NCBI RefSeq assembly: GCF_021117295.1
Contig: NZ_CP088247.1
Span: 1,079,501-1,143,500, forward strand
Length of the DNA stretch: 64,000 nt
Source of the DNA: Methylorubrum sp. B1-46
Lineage (GTDB): Bacteria; Pseudomonadota; Alphaproteobacteria; Rhizobiales; Beijerinckiaceae
Reading direction: 5' to 3'
Position numbers and translations under genes: made by a program. Positions 5,698 through 63,979 of the stretch are shown in pieces. The notes under the pieces are model-generated. The model had not been told where the DNA came from. It searched no databases and was given only the letters and a program-made list of their open reading frames with translations. Numbering within the stretch: the first letter of the stretch is position 1; every line of letters starts with the position of its first letter.

Positions 5698-9171
<3,474 letters not shown>

Positions 9172-9247
9172 ATAGACGTTCGTGTGCCGGGTGGCCCGCC
9201 GCGCGGAGGCGGGCGGCCTGGGACCACACATCGAGAGCCGTTATCCC

Positions 9248-9286
9248 GGCCCGGAAGGAGTGTTTCGCTCCGGCCGGGCCTCTTCA
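9248..9286 (+). terminator. Intrinsic terminator after carB
   Basis: GGCCCGG at 9248-9254 pairs with CCGGGCC at 9274-9280, with an inner GGAG/CTCC stem, and is followed by TCTTCATT. It lies between the carB stop and greA. A smaller GC hairpin precedes it near 9193-9213. Confidence 0.65.
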
Positions 9287-9301
9287 TTGTGGCGCGAGAC
9301 C

Positions 9302-9784
9302 ATGAGCATCGACAAGCTTCCCATCACGGCACGCGGCTACGCAGCCCTCGAGGAAGAGCTGAAGCAGCGCCAGCAGGTGGAACGTCCCCGGATCATCCAG
9401 GCGATTTCCGAGGCCCGCGCGCTTGGCGACCTCTCCGAGAACGCCGAGTACCACGCCGCCAAGGAGGCCCAGTCGCACAACGAGGGCCGGGTGCTCGAAC
9501 TCGAGAGCATGATCGCGCGCGCCGAGATCATCGACACCTCGAAGCTGTCGGGCTCGAAGATCAAGTTCGGCGCCCGCGTGAAGCTCGTGGACGAGGACAC
9601 CGAGGAGGAGAAGACCTACCAGCTCGTCGGGGAGCCGGAGGCGGATGTTCGCGAGGGCCGCGTCTCGATCTCCTCGCCCATTGCCCGCGCCCTGATCGGC
9701 AAGACGGTCGGCGACACGGTGGAGGTCACGACGCCGGGCGGCGGCAAGTCCTACGAGGTCGTCGCCGTCGAATGGGGAGCCTGA
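9302..9784 (+). CDS. greA: Transcription elongation factor GreA
   Basis: GreA binds the RNA polymerase secondary channel and stimulates cleavage of backtracked transcripts. The 160-residue product has the N-terminal coiled coil ([18 protein letters not shown]) with the acidic tip motif [13 protein letters not shown], followed by the C-terminal FKBP-like domain ([20 protein letters not shown]). ATG 9302 (MSIDKLPI) agrees with the family; the frame is open upstream but without conservation. A second gene begins within a few bases of its stop, so the two may be cotranscribed. Confidence 0.96.
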
Positions 9785-56042: not shown

Positions 56043-56812
56043 CCGTGCGCCCGATCACCGAGGACGACATCCAGGCCCTCATCGATGACCGCCTGGAGGC
56101 GGCGCGCCGGGCCGAGGTCGAGGCCTACCTCGCCCGCCATCCCGATCTCGCTTTGCGCGTCGAGCGCATGCGCGGGCTCGGCGACGCCCTGCGCGACGCC
56201 TTCGCGCCGGTGGCCGCCGAGCCGGTCCCGGCCCAGCTCAACCTCGCCCACCTCGTCGCGGCGCGGCGGCGCCCGCGTCTGCCGGCGTGGCAGGCGGCGG
56301 CCGCGGCCGTGTTGCTGGCGCTCGGGGGGATCGGTGGCTGGGGTCTTCGCGGCACGCTGTCCGCACCTATGACCGGCGTCGATGCCCTGGCCCAGGAGGC
56401 GAGCGCGAACTACGCCGTCTACGCCCCCGACCGCCTGCGCCCGGTCGAACTCGCGGCGAGCAGCAGTGACGAACTCGCCCGCTGGTTCTCCGCCCGGCTC
56501 GACCGCCGCGTCGGCGTGCCGGACCTGAGCGGCTCCGGCTACCGGCTGATGGGCGGGCGCCTCGTCGCCACGCCGCACGGCCCGGCGGGCCTGCTGATGT
56601 ACGACGATTCGCGCGGCACGCGGCTCGTCATGCTGATGCGCCCCATGGCTCAGCCGGGCGACGCGCCAATGCGCGAGCACCGGACGGGATCGGCCACCGG
56701 CTACGCCTGGGCCCAGGGCGGGCTCGGCTACAGCCTTGTCGGCGCGAGCGATCCCGCCGTTCTGCATCCCCTCGCCAACGAAATCCGCCGCACGACTGCG
56801 ACGAACACCTGA
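56039..56812 (+). CDS. Anti-sigma factor, membrane-anchored
   Basis: The 257-residue protein has an N-terminal cytoplasmic anti-sigma helix region (ITEDDIQALIDDRLEAARRAEVEAYLARHP), one span (QAAAAAVLLALGGIGGWGL, about residues 85-104) and a C-terminal periplasmic domain with RLDRRVGVPDLSGSGYRLMG and GLLMYDDSRGTRLVMLM. It is translationally coupled to the sigma gene (GTGA overlap). It should hold the sigma factor inactive until an envelope signal, plausibly oxidative, is sensed. No zinc-binding HxxxCxxC motif is visible. Confidence 0.88.
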   Translation: MTVRPITEDDIQALIDDRLEAARRAEVEAYLARHPDLALRVERMRGLGDALRDAFAPVAAEPVPAQLNLAHLVAARRRPRLPAWQAAAAAVLLALGGIGGWGLRGTLSAPMTGVDALAQEASANYAVYAPDRLRPVELAASSSDELARWFSARLDRRVGVPDLSGSGYRLMGGRLVATPHGPAGLLMYDDSRGTRLVMLMRPMAQPGDAPMREHRTGSATGYAWAQGGLGYSLVGASDPAVLHPLANEIRRTTATNT

Positions 56813-56819
56813 GGCTTCC

Positions 56820-57932
56820 ATGGCTCTGCTGCACCGCCTGACCGGGGCTCCGCCCGGAATGCCCCCGCGCGCCCTGATGCTACGTGTCTCCGCCATCGGG
56901 GCGCTGCTCGCCGGCACGGCCGGGGCCTTTGCCGCCGCAGGCGGCTGGCTGTCGCCGGCCGCGCTGACCCCGGCCCGCATCGTCGATCGCTTCGAGCAGG
57001 TGAACGGCCCGCATCCGGGCTTCCGGCGCAACCATGCCAAGGGCCTGTGCGTGGTCGGTGAATTCGCTGGCAACGGGGCAGGCACCGGCCTCTCGAAGGC
57101 GGGCGTGTTCGCAGCGGGGCGGGTGACGCCGGTCGAGGGGCGGGTCGCGCTCGCGGGCGGGCAACCCTACGCGGCGGATGCCGCAACGACCGTGCGCAGC
57201 CTCGCCCTGCGGTTCAGGCTCCCGGATCGGGAGGAGTGGCGCACGGGCATGAACGCCCTCCCGGTCTTCCCCGTGCGCACGCCCGAGGCGTTCTACGAGC
57301 AATTGCTCGCAGCCAAGCCCGATCCGGCCACCGGCAAGCCCGACCCGGAGCGCATGAAGGCGTTCTTCGCCGTTCATCCGGAGAGCGCGAAGGCAGCAAG
57401 CCTGATCAAGGCGCGCCAGATCACCGCGGGCTTCGCCGACAGCACCTTCCGCAGCCTGAACGCCTTCCGGTTCGTGGCCGCCGACGGCCGCGCCAAGCCG
57501 GTGCGCTGGGCCCTCATACCGGAGCGGCCGGCGGTGCCGGAGACCACCGCGCAAGCCGCGCGGACGGACAAGAACTACCTGTTCGACGACCTCATCGCGC
57601 AGCTTCGGCAGGCACCGCTGCGCTGGCACCTCGTCGTCACGGTCGGCCGGTCGGGCGATGCCACCGCCGACGCGACCCTGCCCTGGCCAGCCGACCGCGA
57701 GAGCCTGGACGTGGGCACGCTGACCCTCACCGGTGCGACGCCCGAGGAGGCCGGCAATTGCCGGGACGTCAACTTCGACCCGCTCGTCCTGCCGGACGGC
57801 ATCGCCCCGTCCGACGATCCGCTGCTGAGCGCCCGCTCGGCCGCCTATGCCCGCTCCTTCACCCGCCGGGCGGGCGAGGCGACGAGCCCCAGCGCCGTGA
57901 TCGCGACGGCCGGCAAAGGAGACGCCCTGTGA
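56820..57932 (+). CDS. Catalase-family peroxidase, membrane-anchored or exported
   Basis: The 370-residue product is a small heme catalase-like peroxidase. It starts with a hydrophobic signal or anchor (LRVSAIGALLAGTAGAFAAA), then the distal His72 in GFRRNHAKG and the proximal heme ligand in RSAAY (Arg339, Tyr343). It is about 130 residues shorter than monofunctional catalases. It follows the anti-sigma gene by seven bases and overlaps the b561 gene, suggesting that the cytochrome supplies electrons for periplasmic peroxide reduction. Confidence 0.9.
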   Translation: MALLHRLTGAPPGMPPRALMLRVSAIGALLAGTAGAFAAAGGWLSPAALTPARIVDRFEQVNGPHPGFRRNHAKGLCVVGEFAGNGAGTGLSKAGVFAAGRVTPVEGRVALAGGQPYAADAATTVRSLALRFRLPDREEWRTGMNALPVFPVRTPEAFYEQLLAAKPDPATGKPDPERMKAFFAVHPESAKAASLIKARQITAGFADSTFRSLNAFRFVAADGRAKPVRWALIPERPAVPETTAQAARTDKNYLFDDLIAQLRQAPLRWHLVVTVGRSGDATADATLPWPADRESLDVGTLTLTGATPEEAGNCRDVNFDPLVLPDGIAPSDDPLLSARSAAYARSFTRRAGEATSPSAVIATAGKGDAL

Positions 57933-58483
57933 TGCACCCCACCCACTTCAATGCGCCGGCCCGCCTGCTGCACTGGAGCATGGCGGTGCTGATCCTGGCC
58001 ATGCTGTTCATCGGCGTCGCGATGGTGACCTCACTCGCCGATTACGGCAGGCTGGTCGCACTGCATCGCCCGCTCGGCTTGCTGATCCTGCTTCTGGCGG
58101 TCCTGCGGCTCGCCAACCGCTGGCGTCGCTCCCCGCCGCCCCTGCCGACGGATCTGCCTCCGTGGCAGCGGCGGGCCGCGCAGGCCTCGCACATCGCCCT
58201 CTACGGGCTGATGCTGGCCATGCCGCTCGTCGGCTGGGCGATGCTGTCGGCGGGGCGCCTTCCCGTCGCGGTGGTCGGGCCGCTGGTGCTGCCGCCGATC
58301 CTGCCGCAGAGCCCGATGCTCTATGCGTGGCTGCGCGGACTCCACACCGTTCTGGCCTACGGACTGTTCGGGCTCATCGTGGCGCATCTCGGGGCGGCCC
58401 TGCTGCATGGGTTGATCCGCCAGGACGGCGTCTTCGCCAGCATGGCACCTTGGCTTTCGCGGCGCTCGGCTGGGGATTTATGA
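57932..58483 (+). CDS. Cytochrome b561
   Basis: The 183-residue protein is a di-heme b561-type membrane cytochrome with four spans. Candidate heme His residues are in ARLLHWSMAVLIL, LVALHRPLGLLILLL, ASHIALYGLML and GLHTVLAYGLFGLIVAHLGAA. It would pass electrons from the quinone pool to the catalase-like peroxidase. ATG 57932 overlaps the preceding stop; a GTG at 57929 is directly upstream. It is the last gene of the ECF operon. Confidence 0.92.
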   Translation: MHPTHFNAPARLLHWSMAVLILAMLFIGVAMVTSLADYGRLVALHRPLGLLILLLAVLRLANRWRRSPPPLPTDLPPWQRRAAQASHIALYGLMLAMPLVGWAMLSAGRLPVAVVGPLVLPPILPQSPMLYAWLRGLHTVLAYGLFGLIVAHLGAALLHGLIRQDGVFASMAPWLSRRSAGDL

Positions 58484-58697: not shown

Positions 58698-59327
58698 ATG
58701 CCCGAAGTCGTTACCGTTTCCACAAAACCGCGTGTTCCCTGGAACCGCGGGCGTATCGTCGGACCCAAACCGCCGCTGAAGCCGAAGCACATCTGGGCCC
58801 TGCGCACGCGCCTCCAACTCGCCAACCGCACGCGAGACCTCGCCCTGTTTAACCTTGCCGTCGACAGCAAGCTGCGCGGGTGTGATCTCGTCGGCCTGCG
58901 CGTGAGCGATATCTACCTGGGCGACGCCGTGCGTCTCCGAGCGACCGTCTGCCAGCGCAAGACCGGCAGGCCGGTTCCATTCGAGATTACCGAACCGACG
59001 CGCGAGGCTCTCTCGGCTTGGCTGACGGCACGCAGGTTGAAAGCCGGCGACTGGCTGTTTCCAAGCCGGAGTCGGCTCGGAGAGCATCTCACGACGCGGC
59101 ACTACAGTCGGCTGGTCGACCGCTGGGTTGCCCTGATCGGCCTGGACCCTTCGGCGTTCGGCACGCACAGCCTGCGCCGCACGAAGGTTGCGCTGGTCTA
59201 CAAGCGCACCGGCAACATCCGAGCCTGCCAACTGCTCCTTGGCCATACCAAGCTTGAGAGCACGGTTCGCTACCTCGGCATTGAGGTTGACGACGCGCTG
59301 ATCCTCTCAGAGCAGACCGAGATCTGA
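58698..59327 (+). CDS. Tyrosine recombinase (phage-type integrase)
   Basis: The 209-residue protein has the complete catalytic set of tyrosine recombinases: Arg60 (SKLRGCDL), Lys88 (QRKTGR), His157 and Arg160 (HSLRRTK), His183 (LLGHTKLES) and Tyr192 (TVRYLGI). It is shorter than typical integrases, with only a minimal N-terminal domain. It stands alone, between the ECF operon and an IS5 remnant. No att site or excisionase gene is seen. It looks functional but its target is unknown. Confidence 0.88.
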   Translation: MPEVVTVSTKPRVPWNRGRIVGPKPPLKPKHIWALRTRLQLANRTRDLALFNLAVDSKLRGCDLVGLRVSDIYLGDAVRLRATVCQRKTGRPVPFEITEPTREALSAWLTARRLKAGDWLFPSRSRLGEHLTTRHYSRLVDRWVALIGLDPSAFGTHSLRRTKVALVYKRTGNIRACQLLLGHTKLESTVRYLGIEVDDALILSEQTEI

Positions 59328-59590
59328 AACGGGCGCCGCGGTCGAAATGGCCGCGGCGTGTCAGTAAAATGGTCGCCCCCAGGGTGCCAAATGACCCCTT
59401 GCGGACTTTTCGCCGAGTCAGTTCGAATGTCCCATCCCAAAGCAGTAGCGGATCTGGTGTGCAATAGAAGGTCTGGGTAGAAGCACCCGGTTAGACCCCG
59501 TTTCATAAGAGTTAGTCGGACGGTCGTTTGGGGTGAGCGGCGAGCATCGTCGACGTTGGGGGAGTGTCTGACGCTCACCCTGGATCGCCG

Positions 59591-59998
59591 ATGTGGACAG
59601 CCGCCGCCCGCGCCGAGCTTGCGCGCGAGAGCCTGCCCTACGCAAGCAGCTTGACCGACACGGAGTGGGCGCTGATCGCCCCGCTCCTGCCTGAGCCGTC
59701 GCGCGCGGGTCGTCCCTGGCGCTGGCCGTTGCGGGCAATCCTGGACGGCATCCAGTACGTCCTGCGCACCGGCTGCGCGTGGCGGCACCTGCCGTTGGAC
59801 TTCCCGCCGTGGTCCACCGTTCACCGCTGGTTCCTAAGGCTGTCGAAGGCGGGCGTGTTCGAGCGCCTCGCCCACGCCCTCACCCTGGCCGACCGCGAGC
59901 GTACCGGGCGCGAAGCTAGCCCGACCGGCGCCATCCTCGATGCGCAGGCCGCACGCTCGGGCGGCGTTGGCCTCACCTTGTCAATGGAATCTGGCTGA
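59591..59998 (+). pseudogene. IS5-family transposase, N-terminal half only
   Basis: The frame starts MWTAAARAELARESLPYASS and contains the IS5 N-terminal domain: LTDTEWALIAPLLPEP, GRPWRWPLRAILDGIQYVLR, TGCAWRHLPLDFPPWSTVHR and ASPTGAILDAQAARSGGVG. From about 59969 the homology stops abruptly and the frame ends in LTLSMESG. The DDE core is thus missing. The left end is probably near 59494, where a GACCCCGTTTCATAAGAGTT sequence resembles IS5-type ends. Confidence 0.75.
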
Positions 59999-60174: not shown

Positions 60175-61275
60175 TCAAGCCCTGTGGATCGAACCAACCC
60201 CTGCGCTACCCGACGGAGCTGCGGCGGGCGCGGCGACGTTCCGCGCGGCGCTCGCCACCGCGGAGACCGCCTCCCTGATGGTACCCGCCACGTCTTGGCA
60301 GTCCGACAGCAGGCAGCTTCTCACCCGCACCTTCTGCCCCAGGGCGAACTCATCGGCGTTCGGTAGATCGATCCGCACGAGCTGGCCCCGCTCGCGTTGC
60401 CTGTTGGGCAGCTGGAATTCCGGCGGGAGCGCCTTCGTGACCGGCAGCACCTTCTCGATCTCGCCCGTGTAGGACCGGCCGCGCACTTTCACTCTGACCG
60501 GCTCTCCTTCACGGAGTTCGAACATGTAGGTTTCGGGGATGTAGGCGACCGCGAAACTCGGCCCTTTGAAGATCTTCGTCACCTCCGAGTCGTTGCCGTT
60601 CAGCATTTCCCCGACCGAGGCGACCACCGGCCCGACATAGCCTCCGGCCGGGGCCAGGAGGATGCCATCATTGTAGATGTCCTTCAGGTTCTGTGAGGTG
60701 CCTTCGATCTCCTTCAGCGCGGCACGGTTCGCCTCGATCTGCTCATCGATGGCCTTCTCGTCGGAGAGAAGCGAGAGGTATTTCTCGGCAGCCTGCACAT
60801 GCAGGACCGACATCTCGTGAACGCTCCTTTCCACGGTCAGCCCTTTTTCGCGCGCATCCTTGAGTTGCTCCAGGTATGCCAGCGTTTCGTCCCTGTTCTT
60901 CTTGGCATCCGGAAGCAGCGTCTGCGTGACGGCGCGGCGGCTCTTCAGCTGAGAGATCTCCGCGACGATCTTCCCCTTCTGGATCGAGAGGTTGGCGAGC
61001 GTGTGCGAGATGCTGGGCGATTCCACGATCGCGATCTTCTGCCCCTCCCGGACCAGCTCGCCTCGATGGACGAGAACCTGCCTGATGATCGAGTCGTTGT
61101 ACGGAGCCGACACCGACACGTACTCGCGCGTGATCACGCCATCGGCGTCCAGCAACAACCGTCCTGTCGCGAGGAAGTAGAAAGCTCCTCCGACAGACAG
61201 GGCGCAAATGACGATGCCGGCCAGGACCTTCCTGGCTCGTTTCCACCTCACTGCGCTGACTTTGAGTTCCGACAT
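60175..61275 (-). CDS. HlyD-like periplasmic adaptor in an exopolysaccharide operon
   Basis: The 366-residue product has one N-terminal span (VLAGIVICALSVGGAFYFLA), a barrel-sandwich half (ITREYVSVSAPYNDSIIRQV and VREGQKIAIVES), a long coiled coil at about residues 85-195, the return half (DGILLAPAGGYVGPVVASVG) and a beta barrel (YSGE-type segment GRSYTGEIEKVLPV). The layout resembles Alg44/HlyD proteins that connect glycan synthases to the periplasm, but no PilZ domain is present. I chose ATG 61275 for its GAGGGAG site; ATG 61290 overlaps the wecB stop as ATGA. It is the last gene of the operon. Confidence 0.82.
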   Translation of the reverse strand: MSELKVSAVRWKRARKVLAGIVICALSVGGAFYFLATGRLLLDADGVITREYVSVSAPYNDSIIRQVLVHRGELVREGQKIAIVESPSISHTLANLSIQKGKIVAEISQLKSRRAVTQTLLPDAKKNRDETLAYLEQLKDAREKGLTVERSVHEMSVLHVQAAEKYLSLLSDEKAIDEQIEANRAALKEIEGTSQNLKDIYNDGILLAPAGGYVGPVVASVGEMLNGNDSEVTKIFKGPSFAVAYIPETYMFELREGEPVRVKVRGRSYTGEIEKVLPVTKALPPEFQLPNRQRERGQLVRIDLPNADEFALGQKVRVRSCLLSDCQDVAGTIREAVSAVASAARNVAAPAAAPSGSAGVGSIHRA

Positions 61276-61286
61276 GTCTCCCTCGT

Positions 61287-62423
61287 TCATCGGTTCGCGG
61301 CGACCAGAGCGTTCACCGCAGGTGCGAGGAGCCGATCGGCGATTCGCAGCGATGCACGGCCGTCGCCGAACGGGTTCGCGGTCTCGAGAAGCAGAGGCCT
61401 GTCGTCAGCCGTGAGGCGGCGCACGCCCTCCACGATCGCACCGTAATCGGTTCCCACGAGCTTGCCGAAACCAGCGCTCACGCATTCGGGGCGCTCGGTC
61501 GTATCTCGGGTGATCAGAATCTGGAGGCCGAAGGTCGGGGCCTCTTCCTGCAGCCCGCCGGAATCGGTCACAACGGTCCAGGCACGGCTGAGAAGGTGCA
61601 CGAAGTCGGGGTATTGCAGCGGAGCGAGCAGATACACGCCAGGCTCATCTTCCAGAACATCGAGCACCTCCCCGCGCACCTCCGGGTTGAGGTGGACGGG
61701 GAGCGCGACGACCTTGTCACCGTCCCGGGCCAGCGTCCGCAGGGCTCTCAGGACGTTTCGATGCCCCTCGCCGATGGTCTCGCGGCGATGGAGCGTCGCC
61801 AGGACCAGCTTCCTGCCCTTTGGCAGCTTGGCGATGTCGGGATCCCGCGGCCGGTAGTTTCCCTGCACCTGCTCCCGGACATGGAGCAGGGCATCCACGA
61901 CGGTGTTTCCGGTCAGGATGACGTCGCGGCTAGGCACCCCCTCTCTCAGCAGGGCGTCCCTTGCCATCGCGGTCGGCGCGAAATGCACCGAGCTGGACAA
62001 GGTGATGACACGCCGGTCGAATTCCTCCGGCCATGGAGAATGGAGGTTCCCGGTGCGCAGCCCGGCCTCCACATGCGCGACCGGTACGCAATTGTAGAAG
62101 CCGGCGACGGCCGCGGCGGCCGCCGTGATCGTATCGCCCTGCACGACAACCCAGTCATACCGCTTCTGGCGCAGCACGCCCCCGATCTGCTGCGCCATGA
62201 CACTGAACTTCCCGGCGAGGTCAGGTTCGCCCATGACCTTGCTGCCGTTGTGGCTGATCTTCAGGTCGAACAAGTCGGCGAGGCCGGCCGCGAGCTCGAT
62301 GTGCTGGCCCGTCCAGAACACCTCGAGCTCGACGCCTGAGCGCCTGCTCAACTCCTGGCAAACAGGCCCGAGCTTGATGATCTCGGGCCGCGTGCCCATC
62401 GTGACGAGGATACGCACCGTCAT
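61287..62423 (-). CDS. wecB: Non-hydrolysing UDP-N-acetylglucosamine 2-epimerase
   Basis: WecB interconverts UDP-GlcNAc and UDP-ManNAc. The 378-residue product begins MTVRILVTMGTRPEIIKLGP and has the family motifs GDTITAAAAAVAGFYNCVPV, VAHVEAGLRTGNLHSPWPEE, LATLHRRETIG and the signature TDSGGLQEEAPTFG. These include the active-site Asp, Glu, His and Arg positions. It lies four bases after a small unknown gene and overlaps the HlyD-type gene, so it most likely supplies UDP-ManNAc to the neighbouring NfrB-like glycosyltransferase. Confidence 0.93.
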   Translation of the reverse strand: MTVRILVTMGTRPEIIKLGPVCQELSRRSGVELEVFWTGQHIELAAGLADLFDLKISHNGSKVMGEPDLAGKFSVMAQQIGGVLRQKRYDWVVVQGDTITAAAAAVAGFYNCVPVAHVEAGLRTGNLHSPWPEEFDRRVITLSSSVHFAPTAMARDALLREGVPSRDVILTGNTVVDALLHVREQVQGNYRPRDPDIAKLPKGRKLVLATLHRRETIGEGHRNVLRALRTLARDGDKVVALPVHLNPEVRGEVLDVLEDEPGVYLLAPLQYPDFVHLLSRAWTVVTDSGGLQEEAPTFGLQILITRDTTERPECVSAGFGKLVGTDYGAIVEGVRRLTADDRPLLLETANPFGDGRASLRIADRLLAPAVNALVAANR

Positions 62424-62427
62424 GACG

Positions 62428-62622
62428 TCAGCTCTTCCGGGTCGGTAGGGGCTTGCGGCGGCGCAGCTTCGCATCGTCTTCGCGGCTCGGCTCCGGCCGC
62501 TCATTGCGTTCCGGGAAGTACGGCGAGAAGACGACACCGTTCCGCCGATTTGGTGGAGGCACTAGAGTCCAGGGATCGAGCAAGAATGCACGGGGTTCGG
62601 TCTTGACCGGATCGTCGGTCAT
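62428..62622 (-). CDS. 64-residue protein of unknown function in the glycan operon
   Basis: ATG 62622 has an excellent GAGGAAATT site and lies ten bases after the glycosyltransferase stop; the wecB start is four bases past its own stop. The product starts MTDDPVKTEPRAFLLDPWTL, continues with PPPNRRNGVVFSPYFPE and ends in a basic tail rich in Arg and Lys. No signal or span is predicted, so it should be cytoplasmic. No family is recognised. Its tight position argues that it is a real gene and perhaps a synthase accessory. Confidence 0.68.
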   Translation of the reverse strand: MTDDPVKTEPRAFLLDPWTLVPPPNRRNGVVFSPYFPERNERPEPSREDDAKLRRRKPLPTRKS

Positions 62623-62632
62623 AATTTCCTCT

Positions 62633-63979
62633 TCACCTGCGGGCGGCCATGAAATCTTCGGGAAGTTCGTGCGCCGTCTTCGACCAAACGATCGGTTTCG
62701 TGCCGAAATTCGATTCACCGAGAAAGATCTTCCACGCCCCGAACACAGCCATCATGTTGATGTAGAGGGCGACGGGCCAGCGTACGGCCACGCCGATCGG
62801 GTCGTACTCTCCATAGACCTGATGGTTCGCGAAGATCCGGAACACGTAGCGCATGAACGCCGAAATGGAGTTCAGGACGAGCGAGACATGGAAGATCCTC
62901 TCCCACTCGATCGGCATTGCGTCCGCGGACAGCAAGCCGACGGCATAGAGGAGCAGGAGCGTCAGCAAGATCGGCGGCAGAAAATTCGTGATCATCCCCT
63001 TGCGATCACGCATGAAGAAATACTTGTCCCAGAGGTCTCCTTCCCAGCCGAGTTTGCGCATGGCCTCGAAGTTGATGCCGTAGATCCAGCGTGTCTTCTG
63101 CTTAACCGACGCTGCCAGGGTCCGGGGAAAGAACTCGCGGGTGGCGACGAAATCGAATCCGCGCGTCTCGTCGGCGGAGACCGCGGCAAAGGCCGACTTG
63201 AAACCTGCCCGCTTCGCCTCGACACCGAGGATGTAATCCTCCGTGACGGTGCCGGAGAGAAGCACCATTCCGCGCTCGCGGACGAAGTGGCGCACGAGCT
63301 TCTTCGTGAGGGCCGTGCCGACACCCGCTGAGGGGATCATGGCCCCGACCGCGTTGCGGACGACCATCTCGCGCGTGTGCCTTTCGGCGAACTCGTCCAT
63401 GTAGGTCGAGGCGACGTGGGCATTCCTGCCCCGGTTCAAGGAGAACACCGGCACCTGGATGAAGTCGTAGCCGTTCCTCGCGTATTCGGCGTAGATCCGG
63501 AACGTTCTTGGGTCGATCACATCCTCGCTATCATGCAGGACAGCGATGTCCGGGCAGTCGTTCCTGCTGAAGACCTGATTGAACATCTCATTTAGCATCT
63601 GCCCCTTTGAGGTCGGCCCATCGAGCGTATTGACGATCACCTGGACGCGATCCGGGTATTTTGCCTCCAGTTCTTTGGCGACCCGCAGCGTTCCTGTGTC
63701 GTTAGGGTAGACGCCGAGGAAGAGGCTCACTGCTGGATCGGTGATACGGCGGAGGTTCCCCTCGACCATTTTCCCGAGAACATCTTCCTCGTGCCAATTG
63801 GCGACAAAGACTGCGATCCGGGGGAGCCCGGATTCGGACCCTACCGGGGACAGGCCCGGCACTCCAAGCCTGACGATGCCGAGCGCCGCGATGTCGATGA
63901 AGGCATCGTCGATGGAGGAGAGGCTGATCAGCACACTCATGAGCAGCGTGAAGCTGAGTAGTATAAAACCCGAGTCCAA
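62633..63979 (-). CDS. NfrB-like processive family 2 glycosyltransferase
   Basis: The 448-residue membrane protein has an N-terminal span (FILLSFTLLMSVLISL), a cytoplasmic GT2 domain and at least three C-terminal spans (LPPILLTLLLLYAVGLL and others). Catalytic motifs are HDSEDVIDP near residue 150, YMDEFAERH, PSAGVGTAL, TVTEDYILG near 246 and QKTRW near 293, the latter a Q-x-x-RW processivity motif. The pattern is that of E. coli NfrB, without its C-terminal c-di-GMP-binding part. The TTG start at 63979 has GGAG upstream, and an in-frame TAG at 63985-63983 rules out a longer protein. Confidence 0.88.
   Translation of the reverse strand: MDSGFILLSFTLLMSVLISLSSIDDAFIDIAALGIVRLGVPGLSPVGSESGLPRIAVFVANWHEEDVLGKMVEGNLRRITDPAVSLFLGVYPNDTGTLRVAKELEAKYPDRVQVIVNTLDGPTSKGQMLNEMFNQVFSRNDCPDIAVLHDSEDVIDPRTFRIYAEYARNGYDFIQVPVFSLNRGRNAHVASTYMDEFAERHTREMVVRNAVGAMIPSAGVGTALTKKLVRHFVRERGMVLLSGTVTEDYILGVEAKRAGFKSAFAAVSADETRGFDFVATREFFPRTLAASVKQKTRWIYGINFEAMRKLGWEGDLWDKYFFMRDRKGMITNFLPPILLTLLLLYAVGLLSADAMPIEWERIFHVSLVLNSISAFMRYVFRIFANHQVYGEYDPIGVAVRWPVALYINMMAVFGAWKIFLGESNFGTKPIVWSKTAHELPEDFMAARR

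Follow-up and report, generated by a model that had tools for sequence, protein, structure and literature searches.

We analyzed a 64,000-nucleotide stretch (hereafter, the window) of the 5.5-Mb genome of Methylorubrum sp. B1-46 (contig NZ_CP088247.1, positions 1,079,501 to 1,143,500), where a possible poly-N-acetylmannosamine (poly-ManNAc) exopolysaccharide operon had been predicted. The three minus-strand open reading frames (ORFs) of the original prediction were recovered at their predicted places, and a fourth, small ORF was added as a correction in the gap between the glycosyltransferase (GT) gene and wecB. The cluster reads as follows.

62633..63979, minus strand: NfrB-type processive synthase of glycosyltransferase family 2 (GT2), 448 aa, with a GT domain and membrane helices and without an MshEN tail; first gene of the cluster
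62428..62622, minus strand: small ORF, 64 aa, with AGAGGA upstream, stopping 4 bases before the wecB ATG
61287..62423, minus strand: wecB, non-hydrolyzing UDP-N-acetylglucosamine (UDP-GlcNAc) 2-epimerase, 378 aa from the ATG at 62423
60175..61290, minus strand: HlyD/EmrA-type periplasmic adaptor, 371 aa, or 366 aa from a second ATG

All frames are intact, the wecB stop overlaps the adaptor ATG, and strand and spacing suggest a putative operon. The wecB ORF is open from a GTG at 62537, with the ATG at 62423 as the likelier start. The AGAGGA before the small ORF resembles a ribosome-binding site; a counterpart sharing a pattern around DP...PYFP lies at the same position in a related locus (L006), and no convincing match was found in the other searched loci. 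The locus is a real and probably working NfrB-type exopolysaccharide cluster of new make-up.

Judged by the sequence of its GT part, the first product is an NfrB-family synthase, as predicted. It matched Pfam Glyco_tranf_2_3 with 220 bits and NCBIfam NF011306 (PRK14716.1-4) with 767 bits, above the cut-off of 504. Phylogeny had been set beforehand as a test that could refute this assignment, and the NfrB placement held: in a 57-row tree, whose long outgroup branches drew a warning from the tree program, 49 NfrB-like rows including the synthase split (100/99) from BcsA, PgaC, and six GT2 proteins of the same genome. Membership with BcsA or PgaC was ruled out by alignment and tree. The catalytic residues D169, D267, and W330 of E. 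coli NfrB are kept as D150, D248, and W298. The structural model shows a processive-synthase fold, with membrane helices along the full length and 26 residues past the last helix; its fold matches include cellulose and hyaluronan synthases, and a sequence search with the GT profile found no solved structure.

The lack of a tail binding cyclic di-GMP (c-di-GMP) was confirmed: the MshEN domain of E. coli NfrB scores 52.9 bits in Pfam, and no Pfam match to MshEN was found in the window GT. A blastp search for the NfrB tail flagged 17 of 90 ORFs, left longer ORFs unflagged, and was not used to count MshEN. The predicted "simpler variant" thereby describes the domain make-up correctly; c-di-GMP independence is not proven by domain loss, because BgsA of the BgsBA glucan system binds c-di-GMP via a tail without a recognizable domain, according to PMC5567048.

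The wecB product scored 346 bits against TIGR00236 (cut-off 210) and far under the cut-off of the NeuC model. The catalytic residues K15, D95, E117, E131, and H213 of E. coli WecB are all kept; K15 is named in PMC8669472. The genome contains no other Epimerase_2 match, in agreement with a wecB dedicated to the cluster. Its linkage to an nfrB-like gene had been presented as special, but proved to be usual, and has been published: wecB lies beside nfrB wherever the genome has no wecB in another pathway, as stated in the part of PMC8669469 on NfrB homologs. We examined the best 80 of 354 confirmed synthase relatives at the locus level, counting neighboring genes by tblastn. At 60-72% identity (12 relatives), wecB was present in 12/12 and the adaptor in 10/12 of the same loci; at 30-41% identity (68 relatives), wecB was found in 56/68 and the adaptor in 0/68 of the fetched loci. 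Among distant loci fetched with 4.5 kb or more of sequence on either side, 52/57 had wecB. The synthase-wecB distance in the 56 distant loci has a median of 2.4 kb and is at most 4 kb in 52 of them.

Searching genomes yielded four further distinct carriers (G139, G194, G323, and G343); G342, G662, and G190 duplicate L004, L005, and L008 and were counted once. Across the clade of 17 genomes, our own included, wecB is present in 17/17 and the adaptor in the synthase locus in 15/17. A sixteenth genome (L008/G190) has it at the end of another contig (L124), and in the seventeenth, Bradyrhizobium MOS002 (L014), the synthase is shortened and wecB is interrupted. The order GT-wecB-adaptor without large gaps holds in 12 clade genomes. 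Exceptions are L011, with the adaptor before the GT; L003, with about 2 kb from GT to wecB; and L005, in which wecB and adaptor are inverted and apart. Close relatives are far more numerous in the protein database: a search gave 1044 matches in 7996 scored candidates, and the 120 listed are 63-95% identical and have solely two GT2 Pfam domains. A plasmid search yielded 27 records with a GT relative, all below 60% identity (best-ranked, 33%).

The predicted HlyD-like protein is present, as indicated by weak sequence scores (Pfam HlyD_3, 23.1 bits, cut-off 22.2; HlyD_D23, 26 bits, cut-off 30) and a clear modeled EmrA/MacA fold. The model, made from a 43-row alignment (mean predicted local distance difference test score 84, predicted template modeling score 0.60), comprises an N-terminal membrane helix from residue 8, a lipoyl-like domain, a long alpha hairpin, and beta domains; its nearest solved folds are EmrA of EmrAB-TolC and MacA. 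A sequence search of solved structures returned 25 weak hits, most of them partial; several were to adaptors (MexJ, MacA, EmrA), and biotin/lipoyl domains accounted for a larger share. The protein had been called "HlyD/Alg44-like". Alg44 has an N-terminal PilZ domain on an HlyD-type protein; the Alg44 part of the name was ruled out, as Pfam gave no PilZ match in the adaptor and the first helix begins already at residue 8, whereas the HlyD part stood, on the EmrA fold and on relatives that pair with GT2 synthases.

To place the adaptor, relatives were sought across 297 genomes from the order (E <= 1e-20, with no more than six candidates scored in each). They occurred at 28 places in 27 genomes, 4 in four synthase-bearing genomes and 24 in genomes without this synthase. 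Of the latter, 22 loci were fetched (L125-L146; G157 and G224 were left out). In 21 of the 22, a GT2 match of another type (PgaC-like by BLAST) lies on the adaptor's strand and stops 46-329 bases short of the adaptor; no GT2 was found in L139. Every fetched locus has a TackOD1-domain match, and none has a wecB match. Because these order-wide relatives follow GT2 synthases so regularly, the adaptor is assigned to a synthase-adaptor family with an EmrA-like fold, and this pattern is the strongest new evidence that it serves polysaccharide export. In a quick unrooted tree of 37 rows, the clade adaptors and the TackOD1-locus adaptors separate on one branch (Shimodaira-Hasegawa-like approximate likelihood ratio test, 100), so that one coupling event, in either direction, is enough. 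TackOD1-GT2-HlyD-adaptor is thus a locus type of the same order (21/22 of L125-L146); the function of TackOD1 is called obscure in the part of PMC5847659 dealing with it. One such adaptor (L125, from G285) has a C-terminal GH16 domain fused to it.

The claim that the known partners are replaced was supported by the genome-wide lack of any NfrA_C match (E <= 0.001), with a positive control search in E. coli. A tblastn search with E. coli NfrA or YbcH gave no match in L003-L014 and is weak even among other NfrB loci. The outer-membrane channel family OEP has five matches at three places elsewhere in the genome, and in L006 an OEP gene lies upstream of the synthase. A search upstream of 64000 for a porin, c-di-GMP enzymes, or modifying enzymes had been proposed; a scan of 11 larger ORFs from the 12.5 kb past that position (locus L002; window coordinate = L002 coordinate + 56499) turned up no porin, GGDEF, or sugar-modifying gene. 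The synthase is the first gene of the cluster: the contents of this upstream 12.5 kb are an AAA/M41 gene, transposases, a resolvase, an amidase, and other ORFs described below.

We favor, with reasonable confidence, a synthase-dependent exopolysaccharide system composed of WecB, an NfrB-type synthase, and an EmrA-like adaptor in place of the NfrA pore. WecB would convert UDP-GlcNAc to UDP-ManNAc. The synthase would polymerize UDP-ManNAc, presumably to a homopolymer, and thread the chain through its own membrane channel. The adaptor would connect the synthase with an outer-membrane channel of the TolC type whose gene lies elsewhere, and control would act on transcription, not through c-di-GMP bound by the synthase. 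Dependence on WecB-made UDP-ManNAc is supported by the wecB linkage. The poly-ManNAc product is still a prediction, as it is for E. coli, where a ManNAc-based polymer is likewise proposed ("we postulate") and its identity is said to need further study in the relevant passages of PMC8669472.

Several observations weigh against this system. The synthase scored 228.8 bits against the NfrB model NF008411, far under the full-length cut-off of 1170, which is expected because that profile covers the tail that the window GT does not have. The genome encodes two WecG/TagA-family proteins and a nucleoside-diphosphate-sugar dehydrogenase matching UDP-ManNAc dehydrogenase models below cut-off, so that other users of UDP-ManNAc are possible. 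By tblastn, the L006 OEP was found beside the synthase in no other clade locus, although a divergent one could be missed; the exit channel is for this reason a guess. Carriers at E <= 1e-60, our own genome included, are rare and patchy (4/297 in the order, 4/111 in the genus); the family has 4/347, two being 36%-identity NfrB-like proteins.

Other explanations were weighed. It is unlikely that the product is built from a different sugar, or is a mixed polymer (e.g., GlcNAc and ManNAc) to which WecB contributes one unit only. Cellulose and hyaluronan synthases, of the same fold, do use other or two donors, and the portions of PMC8669469 and PMC8669472 available to us contain no NfrB donor assay; but wecB is the commonest companion of NfrB-type synthases (17/17 clade genomes, 56/68 distant loci), and in E. 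coli only WecB is needed of the enterobacterial common antigen (ECA) pathway, according to the same portions. The WecG/TagA-family proteins would also suit a cluster that adds a short ManNAc glycan to lipid or protein without free polymer, which appears very improbable in view of the predicted fold of the synthase, that of a processive enzyme with membrane helices from end to end, and the modeled trans-periplasmic type of the adaptor.

There is hardly any likelihood that the HlyD-like protein is part of an efflux pump or of type I secretion and just happens to neighbor the synthase. EmrA and MacA, its best solved folds, are drug-efflux adaptors, and many of its relatives are named "multidrug resistance efflux pump" in one source. 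However, no pump gene was seen beside it, its start overlaps the wecB stop, it travels with the synthase in 16/17 genomes, and its other relatives follow GT2 synthases in 21/22 loci. The efflux reading was accordingly set aside, on the missing adjacent pump gene and the relatives beside synthases. Finally, the cluster could be an island passenger that the host no longer expresses or uses: its flanks carry transposases, a resolvase, and a gene of the phage-integrase family, its GC content is 62.5% against 67.3 +/- 2.3% in same-size windows, and it is rare in the genus. With all frames intact and the catalytic residues kept, we regard this as distinctly unlikely.

Compared with the E. coli NfrBA/NfrC (WecB), or N4 glycan receptor (NGR), system, the proposed exopolysaccharide cluster has a homologous GT2 with the same catalytic residues (D, TED, QxxRW). 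E. coli Nfr needs WecB, and the window synthase is linked to wecB, but here wecB lies in the cluster itself rather than in the ECA operon, MshEN and the NfrA pore are missing, and an EmrA-like adaptor is present instead. Sinorhizobium and Rhizobium, presumably of the same bacterial order as the window host, have the mixed-linkage glucan system BgsBA. This is likewise a bicistronic pair of a GT2 synthase and an HlyD-domain partner (PMC9495663, PMC5567048), the latter thought to help expel the glucan (PMC9495663); BgsA differs in being cellulose synthase-related, in making glucan, and in its 139-aa c-di-GMP-binding tail, and wecB is not mentioned in the portions of these two papers available to us. 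The XcsAB-TolC cellulose model of cyanobacteria also proposes a synthase, an HlyD-like adaptor, and a TolC channel, but with a PilZ-bearing cellulose synthase and a route that is itself unproven, by the account in part of PMC12430437. In the TackOD1-GT2-adaptor loci, the adaptor is homologous (26-35% identity) and stands right after the GT2 in 21/22; they differ in the PgaC-like GT2, the TackOD1 gene (22/22), and wecB (0/22). GT-only NfrB-like loci (L015-L019, L024, and L040, five with Bdellovibrionota titles) encode synthases of 461-497 aa that group with the window clade (100/99) and have wecB in 4/7; they differ in having DUF2334 relatives (7/7), GH113 relatives (4/7), and no adaptor (0/7).

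In the published survey, 1,705 of 1,841 NfrB homologs have MshEN; most homologs come from gamma- and betaproteobacteria, and alphaproteobacteria have them occasionally. The text of its section 11 mentions no HlyD-type adaptor (PMC8669469). The nfrB-wecB linkage and MshEN-less NfrB homologs are thus already published, and GT2-HlyD pairs are known (BgsBA) or proposed (XcsAB). The novelty lies in how the parts are combined: NfrB and WecB work with an EmrA-like adaptor in a proposed system that has neither NfrA nor MshEN. A literature search, covering the combination with alphaproteobacteria or adaptors and newer work on the glycan, found no title or abstract that describes this variant. We tentatively suggest, at somewhat less than even chance, that the export parts of synthase-made polysaccharides are interchangeable modules and that the EmrA-like adaptor family, otherwise paired with PgaC-like synthases in TackOD1-GT2-adaptor loci, joined an NfrB/WecB synthase in a single event; the resulting machine would produce a ManNAc polymer with no need of NfrA or c-di-GMP and with a TolC-type exit. 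The NfrB glycan serves phage as a receptor, and its chemistry was still open in PMC8669469 and PMC8669472. A compact cluster with its own wecB and without the MshEN switch and NfrA would be a convenient starting point for isolating a polymer of the NfrB type and establishing its identity. The cluster also links adaptors that carry a drug-efflux annotation to polysaccharide export and hints that nature can recombine synthases with export parts.

Both flanks of the cluster contain mobile-element genes.

58698-59998 (window): phage-integrase-family gene, on the flank opposite to 64000
L002:10519-18348: transposases and resolvase, on the flank beyond 64000

The downstream flank also has a DUF4096 transposase fragment. 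Beyond 64000, about 640 bases without an assigned gene precede a divergent 719-aa AAA/M41 gene, followed further on by rve-type transposases, the resolvase, the amidase, and a DUF4198 gene; 3 of 10 further ORFs scanned there had no Pfam match. An IS3 element in L002 shares 94% identity with one carried by a Methylobacterium plasmid. A tRNA scan and an Rfam scan (gathering threshold) of L002 gave nothing. A promoter scan found 3 sites against 0.8 expected, none of them upstream of the GT start on the GT strand, and 2 terminators were found against 3.1 expected. At window 56736-58483 lies a gene pair for a catalase-family peroxidase and a cytochrome b-type protein, whose DNA is 80% identical on a Methylobacterium plasmid.

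Related loci contain further genes. In Bradyrhizobium, a phosphoglucomutase/phosphomannomutase-family gene directly follows wecB (L011:12509-13846 and L014:4115-5272) and could feed UDP-GlcNAc synthesis. Microvirga pakistanensis (L003) has an ABC transporter gene upstream of the synthase and, directly downstream of the adaptor, a 1816-aa ORF with Ig/cadherin-like repeats (L003:15873-21320). DUF2334 relatives were found in the fetched locus of 13 of the 80 NfrB-type synthases (L006, at 7657-9342, L015-L021, L024, L028, L029, L040, and L081), and our own genome had no DUF2334 match; as a guess, the protein may be a polymer deacetylase. GH113, a beta-mannanase family, occurs in Bdellovibrionota-type NfrB-like loci, by Pfam in L016 (12726-14042), L018, and L040 and as a short tblastn match in L019, and would fit a mannan-like backbone.

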